Positions 3 to 48,726 of a DNA stretch of 64,000 bases are shown in pieces (the stretch's first letter is position 1; every line of letters starts with the position of its first letter). The DNA comes from Burkholderiales bacterium. Lineage in GTDB: Bacteria; Pseudomonadota; Gammaproteobacteria; Burkholderiales; SG8-41. The stretch is taken from the NCBI GenBank assembly GCA_019744975.1, contig JAIETP010000027.1, forward strand, positions 1-64,000. The letters run 5' to 3'. The position numbers and the translations under genes were made by a program. The notes beneath the pieces are model-generated. The model was given only the letters and a program-made list of their open reading frames with translations, was not told the DNA's origin and did no database searches.

Positions 3-287
3 TTATTTCTTGATGTCGACGCGTTCGCGCAATTCCTTGCCGGCCTTGAAATGCGGCACGTATTTCGCGGGCACCTGCACCCGTTCGCCCGATTTCGGAT
101 TGCGCCCGGTACGCGGCGGTCGGTAATTGAGACCGAAACTGCCAAAACCCCGGATTTCGATGCGTTGACCCTGTGACAGGCTTTTCCCCATCGCATCGAG
201 AATCATCTTCACAGCAAGTTCGGCGTCCTTGGCCACAAGCTGCGGATAACGTGCCGCCAGTTTCGCAATCAACTCCGACTTGGTCAT
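3..287 (-). CDS. ihfB: Integration host factor subunit beta
   Basis: Beta subunit of the IHF heterodimer, a nucleoid protein that bends DNA sharply and helps recombination and sigma-54 promoters. The 94-residue product has the normal family length and begins [11 protein letters not shown]. The DNA-binding beta-arm region carries GFGSFGL and [13 protein letters not shown], with the intercalating proline in the RxGRNPK signature. It is the last gene of the rpsA operon, 16 nt after the rpsA stop, an arrangement common in proteobacteria. The stop codon lies at the very edge of the window, so no terminator can be seen. Confidence 0.96.
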
Positions 288-47214: not shown

Positions 47215-47958
47215 ATGTTGCTGCTGCTGCGATTGCTGCGGAAATTCCTGGGCTGGATGGATTTCATCCTGGTCAGCCTGCTGGTTTATGTGCTGGCCTG
47301 GCTGCCGTGGCCCGGCAAACATCCGGTGGCGCACCTGTTCCCCGTCTGGTGCAGGACTTTCGTGCGCGCACTCGACGTCGACATCCGCGTTCATCAAAAA
47401 AATCGCCGGCGTCTGCCCCAGCGCTACATTCTCATCGCCAATCATCCCTCGGCTTTCGAGGACATCGGCATCCCGGCGGTATTCAACGTGGTGTCCCTGG
47501 CCAAACTCCAGGTGCAGGACTGGTTCATCGCGGGGCGGATTGCGAAGACGGCGGGTACGCTGTTCGTGGACCGCGACAATCCCGAATCGCGGCAGCAGGT
47601 CATCCAGACCATGGTGGACGCCGTCAACGCCGGCCGCAACATCGCGCTCTATCCTGAAGGGGGCTGCAAGGGACGGCGCCTGCACAAGGAATTCAAATCC
47701 GGGGCCTTCGATGTCTCAATCCGGACGGGAATCCCGATCCTGCCGGTATTCCTGCACTACGAAGCGCAGGACGATTTCGAGTGGCAGCCCCCCTACACGC
47801 TGCCGGACAAGATCCGCCACTTCATCAATGCATCAAACAACCGCGCCAATTACTACGTGTTCGACCCGCTGGACCCCAAGGACTACGCCGACAAATACGC
47901 CATGAAAGCGGCAGCGTATGCCCTGTACGTGCGCTGGAATGCTCAGTACCTGGAGTAA
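47215..47958 (+). CDS. PlsC-like lysophospholipid acyltransferase
   Basis: A 247-residue glycerolipid acyltransferase with one N-terminal helix (LVSLLVYVLAWLPWP). Motif I reads NHPSAFED: the HX4D catalytic dyad is HX4E or HX5D here, an unusual spacing. Motif III is YPEGGCKGRRLHKEFKSGAF and motif IV IPILPVFLHY. The likely reaction is acyl transfer to lysophosphatidate or another lyso-lipid. It is the last of a LemA-GIDE-hydrolase-PlsC run on the plus strand. Confidence 0.8.
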   Translation: MLLLLRLLRKFLGWMDFILVSLLVYVLAWLPWPGKHPVAHLFPVWCRTFVRALDVDIRVHQKNRRRLPQRYILIANHPSAFEDIGIPAVFNVVSLAKLQVQDWFIAGRIAKTAGTLFVDRDNPESRQQVIQTMVDAVNAGRNIALYPEGGCKGRRLHKEFKSGAFDVSIRTGIPILPVFLHYEAQDDFEWQPPYTLPDKIRHFINASNNRANYYVFDPLDPKDYADKYAMKAAAYALYVRWNAQYLE

Positions 47959-48005
47959 AGCGGCAGGTACGCGCCCGAAGGAATTCTCCCGAGGTTGATT
48001 CTGCG

Positions 48006-48665
48006 CTACGCGGTCTTTGCGCCAGCCATCGCCTGCTGCATCCCCTGCAGCAAGACTTCGGGATCCTGCGCGCCGGACATGCCGATGCTGCGGTTGAAAA
48101 TGAAAAACGGTACGCCGTTGACGCCTGCATTGCGCGCCTCGACATCGGCGCTGCGGATCACGTCGGCATCCGCCCCGCTCTCCAGATATTTCAGCGTCCC
48201 GTCACGATCCAGTCCGGCCTGCGCCGCGTAATCGGCGAGCACGGCGCTGTCGGTCAGGTTCGCACCCTCGATGAAATAGGCGCGGAACAGCGCCTCCGCC
48301 ACCGCGTCCTGTTTGCCCAGCCCGCCGGCATGATGCAGCAGCCGGTGCGCCTTCACTGTGTTGGGCTGCACGGCGATTTTTTCGAATTGCATGTCCAGCC
48401 CGACGGTCCTGCCGACATTGGCCACGCGCTGGTAACGGCTGTGGTCCTTGTCGCCGAATTTTTGCCGGATGTATTCCAGGCGCGGGATTCCGGACTCCGG
48501 CAAATCGGGGTTCAACTGAAACGGCAGCCAGCGCACGGCCGGCGGTTCTTCATCGGGATACAGTTCAGCGAACTGCTTCAGCGCGATTTCCAGCTTGCGC
48601 TTGCCGATGAAGCACCAAGGTCAAACCACGTCGGAAACGATGTCGATGCTCAGGCGTTTGTTCAT
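48006..48665 (-). CDS. DsbA/FrnE-family oxidoreductase with in-frame TGA at the first Cys of CPWC
   Basis: Thioredoxin-fold oxidoreductase of 219 codons from ATG 48665, which has GGAG 5 nt upstream. The first codons read MNKRLSIDIVSDVV, then TGA at 48621-48623, then PWCFIGKRKLEIAL. Family members have CPWC at this spot, so TGA replaces exactly the first catalytic Cys. The frame is otherwise intact to the C-terminus (NGVPFFIFNRSIGMSGAQDPEVLLQGM). Either selenocysteine (UPWC) or a nonsense mutation. A 9-bp stem with one bulge follows directly after TGA, but its loop lies only 11 nt away, shorter than usual for a bacterial SECIS, and does not begin with a G. Confidence 0.75.
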
Positions 48666-48705
48666 GGGTTCTCCGTGAAAGGCGGATGTCAGGTCACAGT
48701 TATAA

Positions 48706-48726
48706 CATAACCTATTGTTTTTATTG
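48706..48726 (-). repeat. Dispersed AT-rich motif, variant copy on the minus strand
   Basis: Read on the minus strand it is CAATAAAAACAATAGGTTAT, a variant of the motif at 6190-6211. It lies between the MmgE/PrpD stop and the DsbA-like gene. Confidence 0.4.

Follow-up and report, generated by a model that had tools for sequence, protein, structure and literature searches.

The protein described here has two kinds of described relatives, DsbA-like selenoproteins and FrnE proteins; COG2761 is presumably FrnE, and we take PDB entries 5cnw and 5cp1 to be FrnE of Deinococcus radiodurans. DsbA-like selenoproteins with a UxxC motif have been reported with COG2761 (PMC1088965), as 'DsbA 1' with PF01323 (PMC2398784), and as 'DsbA-like protein form 1', again with PF01323 (PMC13188914). 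DsbA-like selenoproteins are also named for Anaeromyxobacter, Desulfovibrio, and Desulfotomaculum (PMC1794560). Given these four reports, this kind of protein is already known. FrnE of D. radiodurans is a predicted cytoplasmic thiol oxidoreductase, and the C-terminal CxxxxC of many FrnE homologues is missing from some (PMC8945050), so this motif does not define the FrnE family.

Bacterial SECIS elements are described as lying directly after the UGA, mostly with 16-37 nt to the loop (PMC13188914, PMC10778597). The published bSECIS model has a loop of 3-9 nt, a stem of 4-16 bp, a G at loop position 1 or 2, mostly as G[G/U]N, an MFE of at most -7.5, and a distance of 16-37 nt from the UGA (PMC13188914; the spacing also in PMC10778597), and its loop pattern expects a closing pair (PMC13188914). 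The minimal SelB-bound upper stem-loop is 17 nt (PMC11431864). For the new families of PMC1088965, the DsbA-like family included, SECIS-like stem-loops were reported downstream of the TGA. A subset of genes fails the bSECIS model, pointing to distinct classes (PMC13188914).

Within a window of 64,000 nt, the whole stretch of Burkholderiales DNA that was analyzed, we identified a minus-strand gene (48006..48665) for a FrnE/DsbA-like selenoprotein of 219 residues plus TAG, with a UPWC active site. From the ATG at 48665 the minus-strand translation reads MNKRLSIDIVSDVV-TGA-PWCFIGKRKLE..., and the frame stays open up to the TAG at 48006-48008. A Shine-Dalgarno-like GGAG, read from the sequence (48671..48674, minus strand), lies 5 nt ahead of the ATG. 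A preliminary description of this DNA had noted an unbroken frame to the C-terminus and a normal Shine-Dalgarno sequence, as we find, and had placed the in-frame TGA at the catalytic Cys of a DsbA/FrnE-type oxidoreductase. Two results agree with that placement. When the TGA (48621..48623, minus strand) is translated as Sec15, the protein matches Pfam DSBA (PF01323) over residues 7-207 (E 5.1e-37). The nearest solved relatives are FrnE proteins, and alignment with 5cp1 (E 1.2e-37) puts the first Cys of CPWC on the TGA. A search of the protein against NCBIfam profiles returned no families at E up to 0.001.

The window protein thus has a DSBA domain and a CPWC-type active site with Sec as the first Cys, and shares the Pfam domain, the UxxC motif, and Sec for the first redox Cys with DsbA-like form 1. 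It is related to D. radiodurans FrnE over nearly the whole length, with the CPWC of FrnE aligned to UPWC. FrnE has a first Cys and a C-terminal CxxxxC, whereas the window protein has Sec and lacks CxxxxC, since its single Cys is that of UPWC. No signal peptide is evident by eye in the N-terminal sequence MNKRLSIDIVSD. The enzyme is presumably a cytosolic-type FrnE/DsbA oxidoreductase with a Sec-Pro-Trp-Cys active site and a redox role. By analogy with FrnE, this role may be cytosolic dithiol-disulfide exchange or disulfide reduction, which could be faster with Sec (PMC8945050). Ordinary annotation would probably call the frame broken or call a short gene. An antisense open frame (47781-48710, plus strand) spans the whole selenoprotein gene. 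The codon ahead of the TGA (48624-48626 in the window) is GTT in 48 and GTC in 22 genes, that is, in 70 of the 71 genes of the family described below, and GAC two codons further upstream is likewise constrained.

The source genome, a 44-contig draft of 3,685,515 bases with 99.28% completeness, encodes the machinery for selenocysteine. On contig C3 we identified selB above the curated cut-off (C3:245922-247805), with two SelB winged-helix domains, selA just upstream (C3:244400-245734), and a tRNA-Sec (C3:251198-251288; 75.9 bits), with which ARAGORN concurs. The same genome has selD, which carries an in-frame TGA of its own. With selA, selB, tRNA-Sec, and selD all present, the cell very probably synthesizes selenocysteine and puts it to use; a search for these genes had been proposed in the preliminary description. 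Formate dehydrogenase was considered as a further selenoprotein, and none of the 17 matches listed has a TGA.

The TGA recurs across relatives. Including the window's gene, 71 distinct UPWC genes have TGA at the first cysteine of CPWC, and 93 distinct homologues have a Cys codon there (CPWC), with both sets picked by motif. The set of 71, which takes in another family (f6) and named contigs, came from 106 hits after removal of identical copies, and one UPFC row (L071) was taken out of the Sec set ahead of counting. That row is another, distinct DsbA-like gene, with SDYVUPFC, on contig C79 of genome G033, which is a relative from the same family. In all 71 UPWC genes, a further 161-209 residues follow the Sec codon without a stop. 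The named contigs with UPWC genes are titled Betaproteobacteria, beta proteobacterium, or Burkholderiales, and one is titled only bacterium. In a family search of 74 genomes, 66 matched at E <= 1e-40, giving 69 matches; exactly one TGA is present in 67 of these, all 67 being UPWC, and the other two are CPWC paralogues, a distribution that excludes chance.

Across 61 genomes (the source genome and 60 relatives), UPWC genes occur in 35, and the Cys homologues seen have CPWC at that codon. The selA gene is present in 32 of the 35 UPWC genomes, 5 of the 12 CPWC-only genomes, and 4 of the 14 with neither, classes that we assigned from gene searches. The three UPWC genomes without selA are drafts, 74, 84, and 92% complete. 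We built a tree of 117 proteins by a quick search, with SH-aLRT as the sole support measure and without 24 Cys rows of the 93 (chiefly Rhizobium and its allies); on it the Sec label requires two changes. Most simply, Sec would have been gained once and the Cys paralogue pair L062/L063 would have reverted later; support in the tree is mixed, so a single origin of Sec is likely, not proven. CPWC paralogues occur alongside the Sec gene in genomes G041, G027, and G333 (L062, L063, and L295, respectively); L062 and L063 have FDFVCPWC, and L063 retains pairing like that of the helices described below.

Considering the 71 UPWC genes, the 93 CPWC homologues, and the machinery of the genome, the TGA at 48621-48623 is real and very probably a selenocysteine codon, not a lesion, and Sec is almost certainly encoded at the UGA of this FrnE/DsbA-type gene. 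The candidate UPWC selenoprotein of the preliminary description is therefore supported by the machinery, by the alignment of TGA with Cys, and by the open downstream frame, and its statement that homologues have CPWC here holds in 93 distinct sequences.

Downstream of the UGA, the coding region contains two helices, P1 and P2, whose parts are all on the minus strand. An 11-nt spacer (48610..48620), in which the GGU at 48614-48616 belongs to a weak closing helix of 3 bp, leads to the P1 5' strand CAUCGG (+12..17 past the UGA; 48604..48609), identified by pairing and ensemble probability. The P1 3' strand CCGAUG (+65..70; 48551..48556) contains the third base of codon 23, which is T in 71 of 71 genes. 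P2 (+78..94; 48527..48543), the proposed SelB-binding SECIS hairpin, is a 17-nt hairpin with a 6-bp stem, GCCGGC-CGUGC-GCUGGC, and its apical loop CGUGC (48533..48537) has G in position 2 and then U. The 3' strand of the closing helix predicted by RNAalifold, GCC, follows at +96..98 (48523..48525).

The loop of P2 is CGUGC in 69, CGUGA in one, and GGUGC in one of the 71 genes, in each case with a length of 3-9 nt and G in the first two positions. The MFE of P2 is -9.0 in the window and at most -7.5 in 47 of the 71 genes. In stem, loop, and 17-nt length P2 fits the canonical SECIS (bSECISearch; Escherichia coli fdhF type), but it differs from it in its spacing (83 or 80 nt), in the intervening P1, and in the C.C flanking the loop, which is unable to pair. 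The distance from the UGA to the P2 loop is 83 nt in 55 of the 71 genes, 80 nt in 15, in which a codon is missing, and 83 nt by alignment in L051, all outside the canonical range of 16-37 nt. P1 begins 11 nt past the UGA and ends 7 nt before P2 (4 in the shorter genes), so once it folds the path shortens by about 47 nt. Compared with the DsbA-like family as reported in PMC1088965, the window gene is without a conserved canonical stem-loop and has instead a conserved hairpin at 83 nt.

Both helices emerged from a structure-free scan of 48 genes, which asked for 4 bp or more and for conservation of every pair in no fewer than 90% of the genes. The scan yielded three 6-bp helices: P1 (+12..17/+65..70), P2 (+78..83/+89..94), and a GU-rich one. 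RNAalifold, run on the plain alignment, predicted P1, P2, and the weak closing helix. In the 68 distinct rows of the 71, 99.3% of P1 cells and 97.3% of P2 cells are paired. Invariant pairs are uninformative about covariation. In P2 two pairs show changes on both sides, and across the 68 rows there are 13 cells with both-side changes versus 2.5 +/- 1.2 in shuffles, with none of 500 reaching 13, a control that leaves in the kinship of these related rows. Further pair types did not rise above shuffles in the 68-row test (58 of 500 as high) or in another run (446 of 500 as high). Two rows leave the outer position of P2 unpaired; the others have G-C (53), A-U (10), or G-U (3) there. Two rows far apart in the tree, L051 and L053, have a joint change of G82-C90 to A82-U90, and L053 also has U-A in place of C-G within P1. 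In L294, Leu replaces Pro at codon 27, and the pair is kept as U-G, so that all pairs can form. The closing helix is 98.0% paired and little supported, because two of its three pairs never vary. The GU-rich helix (+4..9/+87..92), 99.6% paired with zero both-side changes, was rejected as unsupported.

Synonymous redraws, with codons drawn from each gene's own usage, give the expectation from the protein. The combination of at least 5 of 6 pairs in P1, at least 5 of 6 in P2, and a.GUG loop is found in 71 of 71 genes versus 17% of redraws. Considered singly, 5 of 6 pairs are retained in 60% of redraws for P1 and 69% for P2, so part of both helices follows from the protein. All six pairs are present in 96% of genes for P1 (14% of redraws) and in 85% for P2 (24% of redraws). 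Over the 71 genes the mean ensemble pairing probability is 0.87 for P1 versus 0.10 in redraws, and 0.78 for P2 versus 0.19. Predicted pairing falls below 0.3 in five genes for P1 and in eight for P2, the latter including the compensation rows L053 (0.01) and L294 (0.04).

Codon choice is also constrained. Heterogeneity was scored against the codon usage of the family itself over 107 columns and 71 genes. The lowest synonymous heterogeneity of the 107 columns is found at codons 23, 29, 28, and 30, followed by codons 4, 22, and 5, and codons 23 and 29 alone reach zero. The four lowest all fall within P1 and P2. Codon 23 is GAT in 67 of 67 Asp codons, and codon 29 is GTG in 71 of 71 genes. Codon 28 is GCC in 68 genes, ACC in two, and GCG in one, and codon 30 is CGC in 69, CGT in one, and AGT in one. 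Median heterogeneity is 0.05 for the six scanned columns of codons 22-30 versus 0.85 for 81 later columns (Mann-Whitney p 6e-5, with columns and rows not fully independent). In the Cys homologues, the codons that match 22-30, and even the residues, vary.

The three features (P1, P2, and the loop) go together with Sec: every one of the 48 Sec genes in the first set has all three, versus 6 of 93 Cys genes, a count in which 38 of the 93 Cys rows are gapped at codon 22 and scored as without P1. Three of the six (L055, L063, and L168) are near the Sec clade, and their features may be remnants or pre-existing sequence; the others (L058, L096, and L103) are not near it. A covariance model (R1) searched against the 61 genomes, with at most 66 candidates scored per genome and strict filters that could miss weak copies, found strong matches only in this gene family; the best elsewhere has 26.7 bits. 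The model gives Cys homologues up to 74.7 bits and, because it also models protein-coding sequence, its scores alone do not prove structure. A pattern search for the 3' half of the element in the source genome found just the one known site. With Rfam, no relevant family came up around the gene at E up to 5, and none at gathering score in the selB locus.

We consider it probable that the directing signal is a distal bacterial SECIS in the coding region, with P2 brought near the UGA by P1. The conserved UGA/Cys pair, the machinery, the pairing of P1 and P2, and its link to Sec genes were all observed computationally; SelB would bind P2, and P1 would act as the bridge. According to the proposed mechanism, the UGA would be decoded by the cell's SelA/SelB/tRNA-Sec/SelD system. 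P1, eleven bases past the UGA, would loop out about 47 nt of coding RNA, and P2, just 3' of P1, would then lie within reach of SelB near the ribosome despite a linear distance of 83 nt (80 in some relatives). The P2 loop would supply the G-U expected of bacterial SECIS loops. With slightly less assurance, we think it likely that this is a new SECIS architecture, with a SelB-binding hairpin about 83 nt past the UGA, about 47 nt looped out by P1, and the same SelB serving near hairpins (selD and glutaredoxin) and a far one (frnE). Such a distal, bridged SECIS departs from the description of bacterial elements as lying directly after the UGA, mostly 16-37 nt from the loop, in the accounts cited above (PMC13188914, PMC10778597). 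We did not find the architecture in the literature searched, most subscription journals being outside the search, and it looks new, although the kind of protein is known. If correct, it would explain a group of selenoprotein genes to which the model does not apply, call for wider rules in searches for such genes, and offer a natural system for SelB acting from afar.

The main competing explanation, which we regard as unlikely, is that Sec is inserted via an atypical hairpin close to the UGA (e.g., +7..11/+19..23), with P1 and P2 accessory, for pausing, mRNA folding, or efficiency. Atypical bSECIS classes are admitted by published models (PMC13188914), and the near stem can form in 96.5% of cells across 46 distinct rows. 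This is the stem that the preliminary description had pointed out after the TGA, with the loop CATCGGC: its formation is possible as described, but its proposed role as a SECIS is unsupported. Changes on both sides of the near stem are not above shuffles (100 of 500 as high), its letters are probably dictated largely by the protein motif CFIGKR, and its loop is occupied by the P1 5' strand, which pairs with +65..70; for the first and last of these reasons we rejected it as the SECIS. Published bSECIS rules, applied by script with a hairpin scan without bulges, pick out 4 of 48 DsbA-Sec genes as having a hairpin with a G[G/U] loop at 16-37 nt, versus 22 of 22 SelD-Sec genes, and locate none in the other 44. 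A looser rule (G in loop position 1 or 2) finds some hairpin at 16-37 nt in 15 of the 48, which favors a near element. The SelD hairpins are seen by the scan yet are energetically weak, 4 of 22 being at or below -3. At 75-90 nt, G[G/U] hairpins occur also in 44 of 93 Cys genes, but those reaching -5 are present in 10 of 93 Cys versus 43 of 48 Sec genes. Folding energy of short segments inside the first 48 nt showed only a weak excess over synonymous shuffles (mean z -0.4 to -0.9), much alike in 12 Cys genes; this test missed the signal because the segments are too close to the UGA.

Other readings of the locus dispense with the RNA element or with Sec. The constraint at +64..+93 could reflect shared ancestry, codon bias, or an overlapping gene and not RNA structure, and the rows are indeed related, some of these codons are favored in GC-rich genomes, and the antisense frame covers the gene. 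We disfavor this reading as improbable: zero heterogeneity is confined to codons 23 and 29, with 28 and 30 next, the joint G82-C90 to A82-U90 change appears in distant rows, and L294 has Leu for Pro with its pairs still formable, though its predicted P2 probability is low. More improbable still is ordinary suppression (with Trp or another residue) or a regulatory TGA, without Sec, even though downstream structure could stimulate readthrough and the GTT/GTC in 70 of 71 genes points to a constrained 5' context. The position is that of the redox Cys, which is Cys in 93 distinct homologues; a residue other than Cys or Sec there is expected to abolish catalysis, and selA accompanies UPWC in 32 of 35 genomes. 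A pseudogene or sequencing error, through random nonsense mutation or miscall, would look alike if there were a lone in-frame stop in one genome. We give this next to no credence and rejected it, since 71 distinct genes share the TGA at the same codon, with the frame open for 161-209 residues beyond and third codon positions constrained; these were the alternatives left standing in the preliminary description, pseudogene and base-call error. The distal SECIS, with P1 as bridge, is thus the reading we prefer.

The selD genes of this clade allow comparison with a near hairpin. Among 31 fetched copies (L019 and L186-L215), 22 have Sec (GGGUGCK) and 9 have Cys. The SelD-Sec hairpin is CRGC-GUU-GCUG in 21 of the 22 and CRGC-GGU-GCUG in one; it lies 20 nt past the UGA, in the canonical range, versus a P2 loop at 83 nt. 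Its stem letters CRGC/GCUG are common to P2 in 22 of 22 Sec copies. However, CRGC N3-5 GCTG occurs 98 times in the window on both strands, so the motif is common by chance. The same machinery would decode SelD and the FrnE-type gene. On contig C3, about 5 kb upstream of selA, a Glutaredoxin-DinB_2 fusion gene (L009:587-1357) has an in-frame TGA at QPGUSSC, and an 8-bp hairpin with the loop GUU lies 23 nt past this TGA, within the canonical SECIS range.
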